From positions 5,828,001 to 5,892,000 of the forward strand of contig NZ_JAMZDZ010000001.1 of NCBI RefSeq assembly GCF_024172085.1: DNA of 64,000 nt. Reading direction: 5' to 3'. The notes beneath the pieces are model-generated. The model ran no database searches, was not told where the DNA came from, and was given only the letters and a program-made list of their open reading frames with translations. Source of the DNA: Hamadaea flava. GTDB taxonomy: Bacteria > Actinomycetota > Actinomycetes > Mycobacteriales > Micromonosporaceae. The stretch's first letter is position 1. Each line of letters begins with the position of its first letter. A program made the position numbers and the translations under genes. Shown here piece after piece: positions 46,735 through 55,754 of the stretch.

Positions 46735-47229
46735 TTAGGGGTAGTAGACCGTCCAGCTGTTTGCGGTGCTCAGGTAATTGCCGGAGCCGTCGAAGAAGTC
46801 GACGATGGTGTACGCGCTACCGCTGCCGACGGAGGTCATCCAGACCGGGGACTGACCAGTGAAGTTGGTCAGGATGGTGCCCTTGTACAGCTCGCTGCCG
46901 TTGATGTTCTGGTAGACGTACGCGGTGCCGTTCGAGCTGATGCCGTTGAAGCTGTTGATGTAGAAGTCCGACCAGATCTTCGGGCTGTGGAAGCTGATGC
47001 ACGATCCGGCGCCCAGCGTGTCCCGGCAGCCACCGCCCGACTGCAGCGGCCCGATTCCGGCGGAGCCAACCGACGGATTATGCGGCTTGGGGTGAACCGT
47101 GGGGTCATACCACTGCGTAAACGTGGTGCTCTTGGCCGGTGTGCCGGCATCGGCCAGCGCCGCCGACGGCAACGCGAGCAGGGACAGCGCCGCGACAAAC
47201 GCCGTGGTCAACCGCTTGATGACAGACAA
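46735..47229 (-). CDS. secreted hypothetical protein
   Basis: About 164 residues from a TTG at 47229, chosen because GGGAGG precedes it closely and the signal peptide begins there (IKRLTTAFVAALSLLALPSA, then ALA); a 14-residue longer version is also open. The mature protein has two cysteines (GGGCRDTLGAGSCISFHSPK) and is rich in Ser, Asn, Thr and Tyr, with repeated beta-strand patterns (GTAYVYQNINGSELYKGTIL). Likely a small extracellular beta protein. No family recognised. Confidence 0.7.
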   Translation of the reverse strand: MSVIKRLTTAFVAALSLLALPSAALADAGTPAKSTTFTQWYDPTVHPKPHNPSVGSAGIGPLQSGGGCRDTLGAGSCISFHSPKIWSDFYINSFNGISSNGTAYVYQNINGSELYKGTILTNFTGQSPVWMTSVGSGSAYTIVDFFDGSGNYLSTANSWTVYYP

Positions 47230-48632
47230 AAATCCTCCCGTGTGCTGAGGGGAAACCTCAACTCCCAGCAAAGATCACAATAGTACATGTGTTCTAATCG
47301 CGCTAGATCTATTCCGGATAGAACGGTGGTCGGAGGGCGACGATCGTTGCTGGGCAATGTGAATCCTCGACCGCCCCATGCCGCCTTGCGTCCTTTAGGG
47401 CGTGACTGGCGCCTGCATCCCACGGTGTTAGGCGACAGCGGCAGTGGGGATTGCCGATGTAGTGATGTCGCGGGCGCGACGCGACGCTGCCATGATCTAC
47501 GGCGAGCTGTGGAGCCCAAGTTCCAGCGCGCCATGCACGGCTTCAGGCTGTCGGTCAACCGTGATCCCGACACTATCTGGGCGCCACGGCTGGCAGGTAG
47601 TGCTCCAGCCCGGCTCGATGTATCGACGTTGCGGCTCGGCCGGAAAGATCGAGGCAAACCAACCAATCGCGCAGCAGTCGACAGCGCGCCATTTCCCGAC
47701 CGAGTGGCAGGAGAGGGAACAATCCGTTGGCCGCCGGATCTGCGGGCGCCGAGCCATGCCTGGCCCTCGATCTGCCCCTTGATTGGCACGAGCTCCTAGC
47801 GGCTGAGTATCACCACGGTGCTCCATCCGGCGTAGGAGACCGGGTTTGCGCCGTCGTCACCCGCCATCTCGGGCTCGCCGACCAGCACTCCTCGCCATAC
47901 CTGTCGACCGCTGGCGACCTCGATACCAGCGAACTCACGTTCGACCCGCGCATCTTGGCCACGGGTAGTCGCCGGAATGTGGCCGAGCCTCATCGGCGTC
48001 AGCTACGCGGTCGAGTCGGCCTACCAGCAGGTTCTCATTCAGCGAAGGTGCGAAGCGCTCAACGTTGTCAAGGCACACAACAGTGCGGAGGTTGCCAGAG
48101 CCAATGCCGTGATCGCAGGCAAATAAACAGCCTGGCAAGCCCGCGGGCGGTTGGCTGGCTCGCGCCTATGACACCGCAGCTGAAGATCGACGGGCTCCTG
48201 TACCCAGGGCCTCACGACGTTGTCCGAAGTGACCACGGAGCAAAGGTTCCCCTCCCCTTCGACCAGTCTGGTGTTTCGGACGCCCAGGCACCCATCAGTG
48301 CGACCTCGAGAAGGAGCGCCGCCCTCGGCGAGCTCGCGAAGTATGCCTTCGAGGCTGGGCAAGGGCTGGACAACGCGCGACTCGGTGACTTCCGGCAGCG
48401 CGCAGCTACAGAGCGGCCCGGCGTGGAACGCCCCTTCGCAGTTGCCCGCCGGCGCGGCCTTCGAAGTCCCCACGTCGACACCGCCGGGCCGTCCCGGAGG
48501 CTGGCGTCAGGAGGCCTGACCCGACCTCATTGCGTATGCAGGTGTCCTGAAACGACAGTGCGTTGCTGGGCCGCGGAACCTTCAAGTCAACGCTCGAAGC
48601 TGCAAAGATCTAAACTTGTAAGTGTAGGGCTA
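47230..48632. other. 1.4-kb region without a supported gene
   Basis: Long but mutually overlapping frames on both strands (for example 47727-48659 plus, 48039-48473 minus) have no recognisable motif, ribosome-binding site or consistent codon bias. It may contain decayed genes. It separates the sigma-factor loci from the secreted-protein/ABC system. Confidence 0.5.
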
Positions 48633-48662
48633 TTGCGCTGGGTGAAGGTCGGTTGCTAGCTT
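48633..48662 (+). promoter_or_regulatory. promoter of the secreted-protein/ABC operon (copy 1)
   Basis: TTGCGC (48633-48638), 18-bp spacer, TAGCTT (48657-48662). The same arrangement with the same spacing occurs before the paralogous gene at 53853-53882, which argues it is the conserved promoter. Confidence 0.65.
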
Positions 48663-48677
48663 CACAAGGTCATTCGC

Positions 48678-48719
48678 GCGGGGGACGGTGCTGATGACAC
48701 CACCCCCCGCCGGTCATCA
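48678..48719 (+). ncRNA. predicted 5'-UTR pseudoknot (copy 1)
   Basis: GCGGGGG (48678-48684) pairs with CCCCCGC (48704-48710); GGTG (48687-48690) pairs with CACC (48698-48701) above it. The loop bases TGATGAC (48692-48698) can pair with GTCATCA (48713-48719) just 3' of the stem. This gives an H-type pseudoknot ending 21 bp before the ATG and close to the AGGAG site. The same elements occur in copy 2 (53896-53938), so the structure is conserved between paralogous leaders while the spacers differ. Confidence 0.6.
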
Positions 48720-48740
48720 TTGCACCGATTAGGAGCCGGT

Positions 48741-49130
48741 ATGACGACCAAAGGCATCGTACAGCGAGCCCTTCGAGCGGCGGCAGTGTCTGGAGCCGCC
48801 GCCACCCTCGCGGTGGTAACGATGCAAGGCCCAGCGTCCGCGTACGCGTTCGCTTCGATCCCGGGTGGCCTCGGGACTGCAGAAGCCGCGGTGGGAAACC
48901 GCTACTTTACGGCCTGCGACGGCAAGCCGAACGGCATCGGCGTATATGGACGGTTCCACACCAACAACAATGCGGACGTTGACGTCGCCGATCTGGACGG
49001 CCACGGCGGCAACTGCGGCGAGCTTGATTACTCCGATTCGCCCTACTATGCGGTGCGCATCCAGGCCATTCAGCGCGACGGCACCGCGTCTGCGTGGTCG
49101 AACACGACCGTGTGCCTTGCCGCCTGCTAG
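48741..49130 (+). CDS. small secreted protein, first gene of the ABC-linked operon
   Basis: 129 residues, ATG preceded by AGGAG. The signal peptide is VQRALRAAAVSGAAATLAVV followed by TMQGPASA, with cleavage after A-S-A. The ~100-residue mature part has four cysteines (FTACDG, GGNCGEL, TVCLAAC), several Tyr/Asn/Asp and IGVYGRFHTNNNADVDVAD. A diverged paralogue is at 53961-54332 (shared MTTK start, PNGIGVYGRF/ANGIGVYGRF, IQAIQRDGTASAW/LQAVQRDGTASAW). The size, secretion signal and linkage to a lipoprotein and a MacB-type exporter recall bacteriocin loci such as the lactococcin 972 type, but the sequence is not of that family. Confidence 0.8.
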   Translation: MTTKGIVQRALRAAAVSGAAATLAVVTMQGPASAYAFASIPGGLGTAEAAVGNRYFTACDGKPNGIGVYGRFHTNNNADVDVADLDGHGGNCGELDYSDSPYYAVRIQAIQRDGTASAWSNTTVCLAAC

Positions 49131-49138
49131 AAAGACTC

Positions 49139-49174
49139 GTCAGAGGTCGCAATCTGGTTATTGCGGCCTCTGAC
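49139..49174 (+). terminator. intercistronic hairpin (copy 1)
   Basis: GTCAGAGGTCGCAAT (49139-49153) pairs with ATTGCGGCCTCTGAC (49160-49174), 15 bp with one G-T, loop CTGGTT. It lies between the secreted-protein and lipoprotein genes and would reduce expression of the downstream four genes relative to the first. Confidence 0.75.
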
Positions 49175-49200
49175 ATGGTGGTTTAGGTGAGGATATCGGT

Positions 49201-50055
49201 GTGAAATTCTGGAACCGTCAGGCATTGGTCGTGACTCTCTGTCTCGCCACGATGTTCGCCACTGGCTGCTCCTCGCAGGAAGATCAGTCGCGCGAACCTC
49301 ATGCCGAGCCGTCGGTCGGGCCACTCGCACCCGTAGGATCCGCTGCCGAAGTCAGCCTGCCGTTGGAAGCCTATAAGCCGAGTCCTGAGCAGAAAATTCT
49401 CAACGCCCGCGGACGGGACATCCTTATTGCCGACTGCCTGCGTAAATCGGGCGAGACCTGGGGAAACAGCGAAGAGCAGTTCGCGATATCCGTGAGCAAC
49501 CGCAATAGCCTGCGACGAGAGACCCGATTCGGGCTCGTCGCGGAAACTGACGCCGCGCAATTCGGCTACCACGGAAATCCTCTGCTGAGGCATCCTCCAG
49601 GCGGACAAGGTGAGGTGTCGCCCGCCGGGGACAAGTGCATCAAAGAAGTGACGGCCAGCATAGCCGGGGACAAGTATCCGTCGCCCGATGATTTCATCAA
49701 GGCGGACAAACTCTCGGAAGAGGCTGCGGCCCGCACGAACAACGATAGCCGTTACATCGCGATGGCCCAGCTGTGGACAAAATGTATGGACGACAAGGGG
49801 TACGACTTCCAGTCGCCGGAAGATGCCTCGACGGATGTCCGCTGGCCCACAGAACAACCCACTGCGCAGGAAATCCAGGCGGCGACCGCCGACGTCAAGT
49901 GCAAGCACGACGTCGAGTACCTTCCACTGGTCGTGGCGCTGCGCACGGCGTATGAAAATCAGCTGATTGACGCGAGCGCCGAGGCGCTGCAGGGTGTCAA
50001 GGAGTACTACGATCGCCTGGCAAGGTTGATGGCGACGATCCTGGCTGGCAAATGA
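49201..50055 (+). CDS. lipoprotein of the secreted-protein/ABC operon
   Basis: 284 residues, GTG start preceded by GTGAGGA. The signal ends in a lipobox (LVVTLCLATMFATGC). The mature part begins with an acidic linker, then LAPVGSAAEVSLPLEAYKPS followed by a helical domain with paired cysteines (LIADCLRKSG, GDKCIKEV, KCMDDKGYDF, ADVKCKHD) and ends YLPLVVALRTAYENQL ... ILAGK. The L-P-L-x-A-Y lipoproteins are seen next to MacA/MacB-like exporters in other actinomycetes. A paralogue is at 54438-55283. It overlaps the adaptor gene (ATGA). A role in binding, protecting against, or handing over the secreted protein is plausible. Confidence 0.82.
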   Translation: MKFWNRQALVVTLCLATMFATGCSSQEDQSREPHAEPSVGPLAPVGSAAEVSLPLEAYKPSPEQKILNARGRDILIADCLRKSGETWGNSEEQFAISVSNRNSLRRETRFGLVAETDAAQFGYHGNPLLRHPPGGQGEVSPAGDKCIKEVTASIAGDKYPSPDDFIKADKLSEEAAARTNNDSRYIAMAQLWTKCMDDKGYDFQSPEDASTDVRWPTEQPTAQEIQAATADVKCKHDVEYLPLVVALRTAYENQLIDASAEALQGVKEYYDRLARLMATILAGK

Positions 50056-51386
50056 CAAGCGAGAATCAACAGGGCGGTACGCACCTCAACACCAGACGCA
50101 AGGTGCTGGCGGTGGCAGCTGGTGCCGGCCTGGTATCCCTGGGCGGCGTCATCGGTGCGGCATTCGTCAAATCGCCCGAGCAGTTCCGTGCAGAAGCTGC
50201 TGGTCCGGATGCGACTGTCTTGACAGCCCGAGTGGAAAAGCGGGTTCTGGCTTCAACGGTGATCACCCGGGGAGCCGTCGGCGCGACACACCAGGTGGAA
50301 GTCACGCCAGCCACGGCCGCAGGGGCGTCGACCGCGTTGGTCACCGGTGTTTACCGGGAGATCGGTGCCCGTGTGCAGCCGGGCGACCTGCTGCTAAGTG
50401 TGTCGGGGCGACCGCTGATCGCATTGCCAGGTCCGCTAGCCGCGTACCGGGATCTGCGGCCGGGAGACAGCGGACTGGACGTGGAACAACTGCACCGTGC
50501 GTTGCGGGCACTCAAGCACTACGCCGGTGGTGACCGCGTGGGTGTTTTCGGCCCAGCCACCAAACTCGCGGTGCGCCGCTTGTATCGACGTGTTGGTTAT
50601 GCGGTGCCCGACACCGGAGGATTCAACGGCCGCGGCGACCTGCCGGCGTTGCGTGCGGCCGCCGACGCGGTCGAGCTAGCCCAGGCCGAGGTCGACGCGG
50701 CACAGGCGAGCGTTGCTGGTCAAGGACAACTGGCGGCCGCGAAGCGGAAATTGGCCCGGGCCAAAGACGACCAGGCGGCGTTGATCGCGACTACAGGTCC
50801 CATGGTTCCCATGGCTGAACTCGCGTACCTGGCGGCCTTCCCGGCAACTGTCGTCTCGGTGGGCGCAGTCGGCCAGCCGGTGAAAGCCCCGCTGATCGTC
50901 CTGTCGTCCGGCGCGCTGGAGGTCGCCTGCCGGATGCGTCCGGACCAGGTCGGCGCCCTCCAGAATGGAATGAAGGCTCAAATCACTTCGGAATCGTTAG
51001 GCAACAGCACGTCCGGGACGATCACCTCGATCGGCCCGCTGACTACCGACACAGAAACGTCGGCCACCGGCGCAGCGCCAGTGTCCAGCGGTGCGGCATA
51101 CCGGCTGGTCACGGTCACGCCGACGAAGGCGCTGGGCAGCGAGTGGAATCGGCAGGATGTGCGCGTCGCCATCACCGCAGCGCAGACCCCCGGCGAGGTA
51201 CTGGTCGTGCCGGTGTCAGCGCTCAGCGCCGGCGCCGACGGGAAGACAACGGTGAGCGTTGTCGCAGGTGACGGCCAGCAGCGACTAGTCGAGGTGCGCC
51301 CGGGGATCTCCGGGGACGGATTCTTCGAAGTAACCCCGGTCAACGACGACCTGGTACCCGGCAGCAGGGTCGTGATCGGGAAGTGA
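50052..51386 (+). CDS. MacA/HlyD-like adaptor with peptidoglycan-binding domain
   Basis: 444 residues. A basic N-terminus precedes one membrane anchor (VLAVAAGAGLVSLGGVIGAA, about 17-36). A lipoyl/barrel hybrid follows (VYREIGARVQPGDLLLSVSG), then a PG_binding_1 domain LRPGDSGLDVEQLHRALRAL ... VFGPATKLAVRRLYRRVGYA (about 135-182), a helical hairpin (AELAQ-type, VELAQAEVDAAQASVAGQGQ) and a C-terminal beta-barrel/membrane-proximal domain (VLVVPVSALSAGADGKTTVS). This is the Gram-positive version of an ABC-exporter adaptor, tethered to the wall. Start and stop overlap both neighbours (ATGA, GTGA). Confidence 0.88.
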   Translation: MTSENQQGGTHLNTRRKVLAVAAGAGLVSLGGVIGAAFVKSPEQFRAEAAGPDATVLTARVEKRVLASTVITRGAVGATHQVEVTPATAAGASTALVTGVYREIGARVQPGDLLLSVSGRPLIALPGPLAAYRDLRPGDSGLDVEQLHRALRALKHYAGGDRVGVFGPATKLAVRRLYRRVGYAVPDTGGFNGRGDLPALRAAADAVELAQAEVDAAQASVAGQGQLAAAKRKLARAKDDQAALIATTGPMVPMAELAYLAAFPATVVSVGAVGQPVKAPLIVLSSGALEVACRMRPDQVGALQNGMKAQITSESLGNSTSGTITSIGPLTTDTETSATGAAPVSSGAAYRLVTVTPTKALGSEWNRQDVRVAITAAQTPGEVLVVPVSALSAGADGKTTVSVVAGDGQQRLVEVRPGISGDGFFEVTPVNDDLVPGSRVVIGK

Positions 51387-52048
51387 CCGCGGTGCTGCGG
51401 CTGAAAGGGATCGGCGTCACATACCCCGGCCCACCACCCGTCTGCGCCCTGCAGTCGGTCGACCTGACCGTTGAACCCGCCGAGCACCTGTCGATCGTTG
51501 GCCCCTCGGGCTCTGGAAAGTCCACCTTACTCAACGTTATTGGCCTGCTCGATCGGCCGACCACAGGTAGTTATGAGCTCGACGGCGTAGACACCAGTCA
51601 GCTCGGCGAAGCCGATCGGGCCGCATTGCGCGGATCGCGGATCGGCTTCGTATTCCAGGCGTTCCACCTGCTCGCCCACCGCACAGCGCTGGAGAACGTC
51701 GCCCTCGCCCAGCTCTACACCGGGCCGCCGGCGGCAGCGAGGCGAGAAGCCGCCCGCGTGGCACTGGACCAGGTTGGCCTGACGCATCGGTCGATGGCGT
51801 TGCCGACCCAGCTGTCCGGCGGCGAACGACAGCGCGTGGCAATCGCGCGCGCACTGGTCAACGAGCCGGCACTTTTGCTATGCGACGAGCCGACCGGCAA
51901 CCTCGACTCAGGCACCGCCGATGCTGTGCTCGCGCTACTGGACGCTGTACGCGACAAGGGATTCACCATCATCACAATCACGCATGATCCGCTTGTCGCC
52001 AGACGTGGAACGCGAACCGTCACCATCCGCGACGGAAAACTGCAATGA
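51383..52048 (+). CDS. ABC transporter ATP-binding protein (MacB/LolD type)
   Basis: 221 residues, GTG start within the adaptor's stop overlap. Walker A is GPSGSGKST (about residues 38-46), Q-loop FVFQAFHLLAHRTALENVAL near 91-110, signature LSGGERQRVAIARAL near 144-158, Walker B LLLCDEPTGNLDSGT near 164-178, and the switch His in ITHDP near 197. All are intact. It powers the FtsX-type permease encoded next (ATGA overlap). Confidence 0.95.
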   Translation: MTAVLRLKGIGVTYPGPPPVCALQSVDLTVEPAEHLSIVGPSGSGKSTLLNVIGLLDRPTTGSYELDGVDTSQLGEADRAALRGSRIGFVFQAFHLLAHRTALENVALAQLYTGPPAAARREAARVALDQVGLTHRSMALPTQLSGGERQRVAIARALVNEPALLLCDEPTGNLDSGTADAVLALLDAVRDKGFTIITITHDPLVARRGTRTVTIRDGKLQ

Positions 52049-53328
52049 TCCCCCGATCCCGATCCCGATCCCGATCCCGATCCCGATCCCGATCCCGATC
52101 CCGATCCCGATCCCGATCCCGATCCCGATCCCGGCTGCGGCTGCGGGACCTGCTCAGCGAGGCGCTGACTGGTGTGCTGCAGCGGCCCGCACGGTCCGCT
52201 CTCACCATGCTGGGGACAGTGCTTGGCATCGGCGCATTCATCGCCGTCGTGGGACTTTCGGCCACCGCGGGCGGTCAGATCGACAAACGCTTCACTGCGT
52301 TGGCCGCGACTTCGGTATCCGTCGAAGACGTGGCCAGAACCGACGCATCCGGCCTCACCACCCTCAGTTTTCCTGCCGATGCCAGCGACCGAGTACGACA
52401 GGTCGACGGCGTCGTCGACGGCGGTGTCTACTGGGCGCTGCCCGTGCAGAATCCACGAATCGCCGGCTCGCCGACCCAAACCGGCGGCAGTTCGGGTCTT
52501 GCGCTATATGCGGCAGATCCGGGTGCCATAGCAGCCATGCGACCGCATGTGACCGCCGGCCGAGTCTTCGACGGCTTCCACCAAGCCCAAGGCGCACGAG
52601 TGGCGATCGTAGGCAGAGCCGCCGCGCAGCGCTTGGGTATTCGCCGCCTGGACGCGCTTCCAGCCGTCTTCGTCAACGACATTCCCTACACCGTGATCGG
52701 CGTCTTCGACGACCTCCAGCGAGTACCCGAACTGCTGCTCAGCATCATCATCCCCACGTCAACGGCACTGGCCGCCTACGGGCCGCCCGTCGACCAACCA
52801 GCCCGAATGCTCGTGGAAACCCAACTGGGCGCCGCACCGGTCGTTGCCGGCCAACTCGCGGTCGCCCTGCGACCGGAAGCACCCGAAAGCTTTAAGATCA
52901 TCGCACCGCCCGACCCGAAAACCCTGCGCCACAACGTCACCGGAGACTTCGACGCGCTCTTCCTGCTACTGGCAGCCCTCAGCCTGGTCGTCGGTGCGGT
53001 GGGCATCGCGAACACGACATTGGTCGCCGTGATGGAGCGCATCGCCGAAATCGGTCTACGGCGATCGCTTGGCGCACGTGCTCGCCACATCGCCGCTCAG
53101 TTCCTGGCGGAGTCCGCCCTCATCGGGTCCTTCGGCGGATTGATCGGATCGAGCCTCGGCGTCGTCATAGTGCTCGCCGTCGCCATCGCCCGGCACTGGA
53201 CAGCGGTCCTACCGCCGTGGGCGGCAGTGTCGGCCCCGCTGGCCGGAGCCGTGGTAGGTGTAATCGCCGGACTTTATCCAGCGATTCGCGCAACGAAGAT
53301 CGAACCAGTCGAGGCTCTGCGCCGGTAG
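52045..53328 (+). CDS. ABC transporter permease, MacB/FtsX type, with Arg-Ser repeat N-terminus
   Basis: 427 residues. After M-I-P the protein has thirteen Arg-Ser dipeptides encoded by a perfect hexanucleotide array, then RLRLRDLLSEALTGVLQRPA. Transmembrane helix 1 (ALTMLGTVLGIGAFIAVVGL) is followed by the large periplasmic MacB_PCD domain (~60-285) and three C-terminal helices of the FtsX domain (LFLLLAALSLVVGAVGIANT, IGSFGGLIGSSLGVVIVLAV, LAGAVVGVIAGLYPAIRATK), with the typical RRSLGAR and P-A-x-x-A-T-x-I-x-P-x-E-A-L-R motifs. Such exporters use a mechanotransmission mechanism and work with the MacA-like adaptor. Confidence 0.92.
   Translation: MIPRSRSRSRSRSRSRSRSRSRSRSRSRSRLRLRDLLSEALTGVLQRPARSALTMLGTVLGIGAFIAVVGLSATAGGQIDKRFTALAATSVSVEDVARTDASGLTTLSFPADASDRVRQVDGVVDGGVYWALPVQNPRIAGSPTQTGGSSGLALYAADPGAIAAMRPHVTAGRVFDGFHQAQGARVAIVGRAAAQRLGIRRLDALPAVFVNDIPYTVIGVFDDLQRVPELLLSIIIPTSTALAAYGPPVDQPARMLVETQLGAAPVVAGQLAVALRPEAPESFKIIAPPDPKTLRHNVTGDFDALFLLLAALSLVVGAVGIANTTLVAVMERIAEIGLRRSLGARARHIAAQFLAESALIGSFGGLIGSSLGVVIVLAVAIARHWTAVLPPWAAVSAPLAGAVVGVIAGLYPAIRATKIEPVEALRR
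52054..52131 (+). repeat. hexanucleotide microsatellite (CGATCC)13
   Basis: Thirteen perfect CGATCC units at the start of the permease gene, in phase, encoding Arg-Ser dipeptides. Changes in copy number keep the frame and alter only the length of the cytoplasmic basic tail. Perfection of the array indicates recent expansion. Confidence 0.95.
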
Positions 53329-53852
53329 GCTCGAGCGCCGAAACGCACCGCGAAGCCTCCTTGCCAAGAGGAAGCGCAGCGCGTGCGACTCATCGCAACT
53401 GCCAAGCCAGCAGTTGGGACCAGAGCCCCGATCGGCAGCCTCTGCCGCATAGTGCTGCAGGCACGACATCGCCACGCCTGACCGCGCGGTGGGTCCCGAG
53501 CCACCAACATGGCGCCGTAGAGCAGCGGACTCGGTCTCCGCCGGGTTCCTGGATCTACGCCATCAAGCTCGCGCGACACGGGCCGGGAACGGTCGCGCTG
53601 CATAGGTCGATGCTGGTGGGCCAACACTGTCCGTCGTGGATCTGGTGAGGTGACCTGGCGTCGATAGCGCGTTTGTAGAAAGTGGACGGAAAGCAGGTGG
53701 CACAGAGCAAATTTGCGCAGCGGCCTAGCTGTGCGGCCCGCCGCTGACCTTCTGCCGGGCTCGCTGGTGCCGTTATGTCTGTCCTGTCAGGTCGGTCGGC
53801 GATGCAGCCGGCGAGCAGATCGGCGTAGCAGCAATCGCAAGATCGAAACTCA
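53329..53852. other. region without a supported gene
   Basis: About 520 bp between the permease stop and the promoter of the second copy. Overlapping frames on both strands have no recognisable product. A weakly tRNA-like string around 53515-53570 was not convincing. Confidence 0.45.
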
Positions 53853-53882
53853 TTGCGCTCGATGGCGCCGAGTTGTTAGATT
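53853..53882 (+). promoter_or_regulatory. promoter of the paralogous module (copy 2)
   Basis: TTGCGC (53853-53858), 18-bp spacer, TAGATT (53877-53882), flanked by CATTGCGCT and GTTGTTAGATTCAC that match the copy 1 sequence at 48630-48665. Confidence 0.65.
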
Positions 53883-53895
53883 CACTGGCAACGCC

Positions 53896-53938
53896 GCGGG
53901 GGACGGTGGTGATGACACCATCCCCCGCAGGGTCATCA
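53896..53938 (+). ncRNA. predicted 5'-UTR pseudoknot (copy 2)
   Basis: GCGGGGGA (53896-53903) pairs with TCCCCCGC (53921-53928), GGTG (53905-53908) with CACC (53916-53919), and loop TGATGAC (53910-53916) can pair with GTCATCA (53932-53938). Compared with copy 1, stem, loop and 3' partner are all kept; here the stem gains an A-T pair. Confidence 0.6.
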
Positions 53939-53960
53939 TCTATACCGTTTGGAGGCGGGT

Positions 53961-54332
53961 ATGACGACCAAGCCCATTGTAAGACGGAGTCTCCGGGCAG
54001 CAGTTGTGTCCGGAGTGGTGGCCACCCTAGCCATGGCAGGCTTGCAATCACCGGCGTTTGCTTATGGGAGAATGGACATTTCGGGTGGTCTCGGTCATGC
54101 CACCACCAACAACGTCAACGACGTGCTGTTCGGCTGCGATGACAAGGCCAACGGCATTGGCGTTTACGGTCGCTTCATCATGCAAGAGGGGAGTCTCGTC
54201 GACGTGCCCGATCCTGATGGCGAATCCGGAGGGTGCGGCGTAGACGACTGGCGCGGTACAGGCTACTACGCATACAAGCTTCAGGCGGTGCAGCGAGACG
54301 GCACAGCGTCAGCCTGGGGCTACACCTACTAG
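53961..54332 (+). CDS. small secreted protein (paralogue of 48741-49130)
   Basis: 123 residues, ATG with GGAGGCGGG upstream. Signal peptide VRRSLRAAVVSGVVATLAMA then GLQSPAFA. The mature part keeps GGLGHATTNN, DDKANGIGVYGRF and LQAVQRDGTASAW, but has only two cysteines (LFGCDDK, SGGCGVDD) and lacks the two near the C-terminus of copy 1, which suggests one disulphide fewer. It ends shortly after the shared block (GYTY). It is followed by its own lipoprotein gene but no transporter. Confidence 0.8.
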   Translation: MTTKPIVRRSLRAAVVSGVVATLAMAGLQSPAFAYGRMDISGGLGHATTNNVNDVLFGCDDKANGIGVYGRFIMQEGSLVDVPDPDGESGGCGVDDWRGTGYYAYKLQAVQRDGTASAWGYTY

Positions 54333-54371
54333 GTCGCAATTCACGTCGCCACGCTGACAATTGGTCAACCT

Positions 54372-54410
54372 GGACGGTCGCCCAGTCGTACAATGGCCGG
54401 GCGACCGTCC
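54372..54410 (+). terminator. intercistronic hairpin (copy 2)
   Basis: GGACGGTCGCCC (54372-54383) pairs perfectly with GGGCGACCGTCC (54399-54410) across a 15-nt loop. It occupies the same place as the hairpin at 49139-49174 but has unrelated sequence, so position rather than sequence is conserved. Confidence 0.75.
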
Positions 54411-54437
54411 AATTTCGATGCAGAGGGTATGGCTACT

Positions 54438-55283
54438 GTGAACCGTCTTGGATGGCGCGGGCTGACCGCGATTTTCTTGAGTGCTTCCGTGTCGATGGGA
54501 TGTTCATCTCACGACCAGAAGACGCAGTCCAATGTTATCGAACCGAGCATTGGTGTGCTTGCTCCCGTGAGTTCAGTGTCGAGTATCTCGCTGCCTCTCG
54601 ACGCCTACCGGCTAAGTTCAGAGCAGAAGCTTCTCGACGCGCAAGCTCAGGACCTTTTAATGAGTGATTGCATGCATAAGGCCGGAGCCTCTTTAGAGGG
54701 CGAATCAGTAACCTATTCCGTGGCCGTAAACGAGTACGTCCAGAAGCAGCGCGACAATTCGTTTGGACTAGTTGACGAATCGAAGGCTCAGCAGTTCGGC
54801 TATCATGGCGAGCCGATGCCGATTCCGGAGGAGAAGCAGTACTCGCCCTCGCCGGCTATGAGCCAGTGTTCCGCTGAAGTAAAGCAGTCCATGGCAGAGA
54901 AGGCGCCATCTGTCCAAGATTTTAGCAAGAGCTTCAGGCTTCCGGATGAAGCGGTGGCCCGTACCCGTAACGACAGTCGCTACCTCGCCATGGCCAGGCG
55001 TTGGTCGGACTGCATGAAAGACAAAGGCTACGTCTACGATTCGCCAGAGAGCGCGGCGACTGATTCCAATTGGCCAACCAGCAATCCGAGCGCAAGTGAA
55101 GTACAGACCGCGACCGCTGATGTCCGTTGTAAGGCGGAGACCGATTACCTTCCGTTGGTTGTTGCCTTGCGGACCGCGTATGAAATCCAGCTACTTGAGG
55201 AGAATGCTGAGGCGCTTCAGCGAGTCAAGGAGTATTACGATAGGCGGACGAGGTTGGTTGCAGGCATCTTGGCCGGCAAATGA
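54438..55283 (+). CDS. lipoprotein (paralogue of 49201-50055)
   Basis: 281 residues from the GTG at 54438, favoured over the ATG at 54429 because GAGGG lies 10 bases upstream. Signal and lipobox: LTAIFLSASVSMGC. It shares with copy 1 the blocks IGVLAPVSS, SLPLDAYRLSSEQKLLDAQA, MSDCMHKAG, ARTRNDSRYLAMARRWSDCM, PSASEVQTATADVRCK, YLPLVVALRTAYEIQL, VKEYYDRR and ILAGK. The paired cysteines are kept. Overall identity is perhaps half by eye. The gene ends 12 bp before a transposase remnant, so any transporter genes once linked to this copy may have been lost. Confidence 0.82.
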   Translation: MNRLGWRGLTAIFLSASVSMGCSSHDQKTQSNVIEPSIGVLAPVSSVSSISLPLDAYRLSSEQKLLDAQAQDLLMSDCMHKAGASLEGESVTYSVAVNEYVQKQRDNSFGLVDESKAQQFGYHGEPMPIPEEKQYSPSPAMSQCSAEVKQSMAEKAPSVQDFSKSFRLPDEAVARTRNDSRYLAMARRWSDCMKDKGYVYDSPESAATDSNWPTSNPSASEVQTATADVRCKAETDYLPLVVALRTAYEIQLLEENAEALQRVKEYYDRRTRLVAGILAGK

Positions 55284-55295
55284 GGGCTCACGAAC

Positions 55296-55754
55296 TTAGC
55301 GGGGGTCGAGGTGACCTCGGGCGCGTCGGGTGGTCGCGCAGCGGGTGTGTAGCCGCTGGTTGGCGGCATTTCTGAACCCGTAGGCAGCGCGGGCGACGGT
55401 CTTGATCACCCGGTTGGTGCCTTCGCTGCCGTCGTTCGTGATCCCGGTCTGCAGGAAGACCAGGACCTTCGGCCACCAGGTCTGCACTGTCATCGCGAGC
55501 CGTTCGAGCTCGGGCAGGCCGGACTGGCCGCGGCGTCTGTAGAACTGCCATAGGGCATCGACGATCTGTCCTCGGCTGGGGTAGCTGCGGGCCAGGGCAA
55601 GCAGATCGAGCAGGTCTTCCTTGGTGTTCCACGCGGCCAGGATCGGTTCGCGGACGTGCTTGGGCAGCAGTCTCAGGTCGGTCTGCAGTTCGGCCAGGTG
55701 CCGGTCGGATGGGCTGTCGGCGCGGGGGGTCAGGCGGTTGCGCAGCTCCCACTC
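55296..55754 (-). pseudogene. ISL3-family transposase, C-terminal fragment
   Basis: The minus frame reads LTPRADSPSDRHLAELQTDL, RLLPKHVREPILAAWNTKED, LARSYPSRGQIVDALWQFY and, at the end, TGITNDGSEGTNRVIKTVAR with AYGFRNAANQRLHTRCATTR. This is the C-terminal third of a DDE_Tnp_ISL3 transposase. The N-terminal two thirds and the terminal inverted repeats are missing; the fragment joins another broken gene at about 55755. The remnant cannot move on its own. Confidence 0.85.

Follow-up and report, generated by a model that had tools for sequence, protein, structure and literature searches.

What does a MacAB-type transporter handle when its genes stand behind those of a small secreted protein and a lipoprotein? 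The question is raised by a locus of Hamadaea flava, in a window of 64,000 nucleotides that covers positions 5828001-5892000 of an 8.86-Mb single-contig genome (feature coordinates below count from the first letter of the window). We write SSP for small secreted protein, LIPO for the lipoprotein, which is nameless in Pfam, and MacAB for adaptor, ATPase and permease together. All seven named genes are present as open reading frames in the window, on the forward strand: SSP-A (48741-49130), with a signal-peptide-like start as judged by eye, LIPO-A (49201-50055), a MacA-like adaptor (50052-51386), an ATPase (51383-52048), a permease (52045-53328) and, further downstream, a second pair, SSP-B (53961-54332) and LIPO-B (54429-55283). 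Our answer, to which we give a probability of roughly 0.4, is that they form an envelope-handling module in which LIPO would be the receptor of SSP and MacAB would drive SSP out of the wall space.

Conservation of the five-gene order was one of the checks proposed in a first-pass annotation made from the DNA letters, and the order SSP, LIPO, adaptor, ATPase, permease does recur in full in a genome of another genus (G099), which has a second SSP on the opposite strand. Two-sequence profiles of LIPO and SSP match 79 and 26, respectively, of 250 sampled genomes of the family, the own genome included. A scan seeded with the permease, in which no LIPO sequence was used, found LIPO in 72 of 80 loci, these being the best 80 of 574 confirmed and so not a random sample; five of the remainder are otherwise complete and three hold the permease only. 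The 72 comprise 66 loci from Actinomycetes, four from Acidimicrobiia and two unassigned, with 38 from Streptomycetaceae. An SSP of one of the three classes described below lies near LIPO in 44 of the 80. In a second set of 60 loci, seeded with LIPO, drawn from its stronger profile matches and tallied in six frames independently of our own gene calling, 28 contain adaptor and permease, 46 have an SSP from one of the three classes beside LIPO, and in ten LIPO has neither SSP nor MacAB. LIPO is thus a hub, accompanied by SSP, by MacAB or by the two together, and, judged by these counts, the combination of LIPO, adaptor, ATPase and permease is not local but widespread. Among the matches listed in open-licence PubMed Central, none describes the set of SSP, LIPO and MacAB.

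The proteins that occupy the SSP position are small and start like signal peptides, but they are not of one kind. After removal of signal stretches by script, 130 small proteins adjacent to LIPO or related to such neighbours were sorted into 75 crystallin-like, 20 window-type and six SH3-like proteins, the last a label given from the look of the sequence, with no database match, and 29 others, many of which are not SSPs at all. The three classes have no shared members and profile-profile probabilities of at most 0.11%, and on these comparisons they are mutually unrelated: one resembles beta-gamma-crystallins and I36 inhibitors, one is SH3-like and one is the window type. The first is the commonest beside LIPO: PF03995 (peptidase inhibitor family I36) is matched by 26 of 71 small proteins taken from there (E <= 0.01), and a joint profile of the I36-like SSPs finds beta-gamma-crystallins in the PDB, the best being Protein S (E 9.6e-9). 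Although such proteins hold the SSP position in other loci, the SSPs of the window do not match PF03995, and their hhalign probability against the I36/crystallin class is 0.07%. Nor do they match any other Pfam family or come close to an NCBIfam cut-off, and neither matches Lactococcin_972 in Pfam or NCBIfam at E <= 1; with LIPO likewise nameless in Pfam and nothing in NCBIfam near cut-off, the earlier statement that the proteins match no familiar bacteriocin family stands. The description of a disulphide-type protein also agrees with the sequences, SSP-A having four cysteines (59, 92, 125 and 129) and SSP-B two (59 and 92). The window-type SSP adjoins LIPO in six other loci (L070, L101, L103, L112, L113 and L206). 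In four loci with SH3-like SSPs (L119, L120, L128 and L129) LIPO and the adaptor are separated by one more conserved small protein, some 160-190 amino acids long.

The best evidence, at the level of sequence, that LIPO and SSP belong together is the way in which SSP class is distributed over the LIPO tree. A quick tree was made of 121 LIPOs, namely the two of the window and the 119 among 130 fetched sequences that reach 200 amino acids, and 86 of its rows were given an SSP-class label. The label changes at least four times, compared with 9-12 times in 200 label shuffles; many forks of the tree are weak, and the inheritance of loci as a whole adds to the class pattern. LIPOs with SH3-like partners group in a single clade (SH-aLRT 85); those with window-type partners are spread over three positions in the tree, with five members in the largest clade (SH-aLRT 85). 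This suggests that LIPO and SSP are matched partners and that one kind of SSP was exchanged for another four times or more.

Matched partners might also be a toxin and its immunity protein. SSP would then be antibacterial or antifungal, LIPO a membrane-anchored immunity protein and MacAB a pump for self-protection, while the second pair and the remnant of a third LIPO described below would record turnover of toxin and immunity. The two SSPs of G099 speak for antagonism: their leaders are identical at 149 of 150 positions, while dN/dS rises from about 0.08 for the signal part to 0.87 for the mature part (Fisher p 0.008, computed on the counts), a pattern that fits recent exchange of the leader and fast change of the mature protein. 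Among eleven usable pairs of related loci (L072/L074 excluded for a mis-assigned SSP, L188 used twice), however, dN/dS of the mature SSP exceeds that of LIPO in just five, so that these rates give no general arms-race signal. The agreement of SSP and LIPO on the tree, the repeated duplication and decay of pairs in the window and also in L074, and the existence of SSP-LIPO pairs without a pump are all compatible with antagonism, as is the protection from the secreted toxin SDP that passages of PMC4887032 ascribe to YknWXYZ of Bacillus; the largest SSP class, on the other hand, is protease-inhibitor-like, and window-type SSPs often occur without LIPO. We regard antagonism as unlikely. A bacteriocin locus in particular, which the layout had been said to resemble, is not supported by SSPs that are most often of the I36/crystallin kind, by the missing general arms-race signal or by the 19 of 60 LIPO-seeded loci whose pairs have no MacAB.

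The arrangement of the genes adds an argument about dosage. The first-pass annotation had described five genes in one tightly overlapped operon, followed by a diverged second pair under the same leader structure. The genes and the paralogy are real, with 55% identity between SSP-A and SSP-B (E 2e-42) and 50-51% between LIPO-A and LIPO-B (LIPO-B matches the LIPO profile at E 1.4e-80). By the coordinates, overlaps of 4 nt join LIPO-A to the adaptor, the adaptor to the ATPase and the ATPase to the permease, but SSP-A stays clear of LIPO-A by 70 bp, in which a hairpin occupies 49139-49174 (gap fold z -4.1, stem score 15), and therefore the tight overlap is limited to four of the five genes. The gap between SSP-B and LIPO-B also has a hairpin (54371-54411; z -3.4, stem score 16), of a sequence that differs from the first. 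Such hairpins recur. Among 60 SSP-LIPO gaps of 40-260 bp, 54 have a stem score of at least 10 (median 14), compared with 21 of 100 other same-strand gaps in the same loci (Fisher p 1.6e-18), and a fold z below -2.5 is found in 41 of the 60 and 12 of the 100. Stem sequences vary between loci, and therefore it is the structure that is conserved. The hairpin either terminates or attenuates transcription or stabilises the message; any of these would lead to unequal expression of SSP and LIPO-MacAB, and from the position of the hairpin SSP is probably made in excess.

A full terminator would also suit the view that SSP and LIPO-MacAB are separate transcription units that share a neighbourhood and no function, as would the mostly free-standing habit of some SSP families. 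This is very improbable, given that most LIPO loci have an SSP beside LIPO, that SSP class follows the LIPO tree and that SSP and LIPO were duplicated jointly in the window. Hairpin and partner matching together fit, as far as sequence goes, the earlier proposal that the functional product is SSP, with the pump serving for its export or for resistance to it.

The leader structure claimed for both SSPs is indeed shared, and it occurs at only these two places in the genome. Leader A (48678-48740) begins with a hairpin (48678-48710), followed by a GGTCATCAT box and a ribosome-binding stretch (RNA fold z -2.5); RNA folding and a pattern search show the same element in leader B (53896-53960). The layout, GGGGACGGTG-loop-CACCAYCCCC, then the box, then the ribosome site, is common to both SSPs of the window and both of G099. 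With up to three mismatches, a 27-base leader pattern matched the own genome at leaders A and B only, and a control pattern nowhere; across 354 family genomes it rose above chance only at the SSPs of the window and of G099. It may serve as an operator or act at the RNA level.

The three transporter genes have the features of a type VII ABC (MacAB-type) system, namely the permease domains, a separate ATPase and an HlyD/MacA-like adaptor. The permease carries a MacB_PCD outer domain (PF12704, E 5.4e-16) and a C-terminal FtsX domain (PF02687, E 2e-17), both above cut-off. The ATPase is of the LolD/MacB class (PF00005, E 9.9e-34), and its best NCBIfam matches, MacB first, then LolD and FtsE, are all below their cut-offs; the Lactococcin 972 type ABC subfamily TIGR03608 was rejected at 178.1 bits against a cut-off of 254.85. 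The adaptor has matches under cut-off to TIGR00999 (E 1.1e-6) and, in a PG_binding_1-like domain, to PF01471 (E 5.4e-4), and phmmer found no relative of it in the PDB at E <= 0.1. Among 16 aligned adaptor relatives PG_binding_1 is found in 15 (E <= 0.001) and HlyD_3 in four. At the start of the permease gene lies a perfect hexanucleotide repeat (52052-52133, 13.7 copies), a feature beyond the first-pass annotation, which encodes an Arg-Ser run at the cytoplasmic N-terminus; a change in copy number would preserve the frame. The run is absent from the permease of L070, the nearest relative.

LIPO itself is a defined family. A lipobox region, four later cysteines and the L-P-L-x-A-Y motif that had been noticed in the window are common to 42 aligned members, the motif with the consensus LPLDAY. 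Pfam gave nothing consistent on these members (single members matched five different families, none below E 0.017), and a sequence search of the PDB returned a single chance-level match (E 0.34). LIPO-A has its lipobox cysteine at residue 23 and the four conserved cysteines, and an AlphaFold2 model from 50 sequences, predicted with good confidence, is all helical (pLDDT 87.4, pTM 0.81). Elsewhere in the own genome lipoproteins with a CMREHGV motif stand next to MacAB operons, and the C-terminal part of LIPO is related to them (hhalign probability 97.3%; at most 2.6% for 20 column-shuffled profiles), and in the 14 permease-seeded loci listed as divergent, mostly a short CxxxxG protein precedes the adaptor while the SSP-LIPO pair has the opposite orientation. 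By this homology LIPO is thus a long relative of the general lipoprotein of actinobacterial MacAB operons. CMREHGV-like repeats occur in seven or more other lipoproteins of the own genome (L130, L131, L133 and L135-L137); three were scanned, with no Pfam family above cut-off. Several lie directly 5' of adaptor, ATPase and permease genes and near two-component genes, named by eye from translations. A LIPO subclade without SSP or MacAB (L093, L094, L099, L100, L106 and L115) represents a different setting, with a 112-amino-acid gene 3' of LIPO in each of the six loci (translation seen in four).

This kinship opens another possibility, that LIPO-MacAB pumps antimicrobial peptides or cell-wall antibiotics, as the genome's other MacAB operons would, and that SSP is a decoy, a sensor ligand or an inhibitor released under stress. 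The related lipoproteins beside those operons, several adjoining two-component genes as judged by eye, agree with such an envelope-stress role, as do the 26 of 80 permease-seeded loci that hold LIPO and MacAB without a recognised SSP, but it leaves the match of LIPO and SSP on the tree and the MacAB-less pairs (19/60) unexplained; we think it rather unlikely.

Precedents for the pump come from both Gram-negative and Gram-positive bacteria. In the Aat system of E. coli (AatPABCD with CexE/Aap), a small protein is secreted in two steps, first by Sec and then by a MacA/MacB-like system (PMC7943197). Unlike our locus, it is Gram-negative, with an outer-membrane protein, the acyltransferase AatD and an acylated substrate, and a separate Cys-lipoprotein partner is not described in the passages compared. 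STII, a small disulphide protein exported by Sec, is taken from the periplasm by MacAB and leaves through MacAB-TolC (PMC5985334). TolC is required there, unlike in the set described here. The STII gene is not known to lie within the macAB operon. The Gram-positive YknWXYZ adds a fourth component to a MacAB-like set of adaptor, ATPase and permease (PMC4887032); unlike LIPO, this component is a Yip1-family membrane protein, YknW, and neither a PG-binding domain nor a co-encoded SSP is described in the passages compared. Mr10EFGH and the DD14-type enterocin transporters, again adaptor, ATPase and permease, both make the producer immune and export the small protein encoded alongside (PMC10598978), but the bacteriocins concerned are leaderless or circular and the extra component Mr10E is transmembrane.

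It is the hub position of LIPO together with these precedents that leads us to propose that LIPO receives SSP and MacAB drives it outward. From the computed gene order, recurrence, partner matching, hairpin and homology we infer binding, transport, its direction and its purpose as follows. SSP would be produced in excess, exported by Sec and freed of its signal peptide; the helical, membrane-anchored LIPO, matched to the SSP class, would capture it on the outside of the membrane and dock it on the MacA-MacB-type complex, where ATP-driven movement of the outer domains and the peptidoglycan-holding adaptor would push it out from under the wall. The purpose would be export, self-protection against retained SSP, or both, and where MacAB is absent the SSP-LIPO pair would act alone or with a general pump.

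Several observations weigh against this envelope-handling module. Proteins of about 10 kDa pass a thick wall without a pump, as far as is known. In 19 of the 60 LIPO-seeded loci SSP and LIPO lack adaptor and permease, and 26 of the 80 permease-seeded loci have LIPO and MacAB without an SSP of the three classes, though some have unclassified small genes. In three genomes examined for this (G197, G241 and G223), the best permease reaches 208-228 bits compared with more than 400 in-clade, 80 of 115 candidates having been scored in G197 and 80 of 108 in G223. L070 has two SSPs with a single LIPO. All 12 fetched loci seeded with the window-type SSP lack LIPO and adaptor within the stretch obtained, which tells against an obligate module, and therefore the window-type family appears on these loci to be mostly free-standing; the separation of SSP from lipoprotein and transporter that would have spoken against the earlier proposal is thus found in part, yet 46 of 60 LIPO loci do have an SSP.

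A LIPO search of the own genome found two matches and no further intact copy; only the 3' remnant of a third, another feature beyond the first-pass annotation, lies upstream (47989-48126, forward strand; six-frame hmmsearch with the LIPO profile, E 5.1e-9, positions 251-294 of 295), and therefore the locus, read from its sequence, is one of pair duplication and decay. An open frame 3' of LIPO-B (55296-55493, reverse strand) may, from its resemblance, be the end of a transposase. Upstream, 46735-47229 on the reverse strand encodes another small protein with a signal-peptide-like start and no Pfam match at E <= 0.1.

Bacteria without an outer membrane often have adaptor-bearing pumps of the MacAB kind, few of whose cargoes are known; a large clade of them is now tied to a lipoprotein family nameless in Pfam and to co-encoded SSPs, many of the I36 type. 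Possibly, though we think it doubtful, this is a two-step secretion route of single-membrane actinobacteria, in which folded SSPs of unrelated, swappable folds, exported by Sec, would be passed by a dedicated lipoprotein receptor to a peptidoglycan-anchored MacAB that drives them through the wall; the receptor rather than the pump would fix the cargo, and cargo genes would be traded as cassettes. Many soil actinobacteria carry an interchangeable SSP with a matching lipoprotein and often a pump, which is probably a little-studied way of handling secreted proteins in the envelope.

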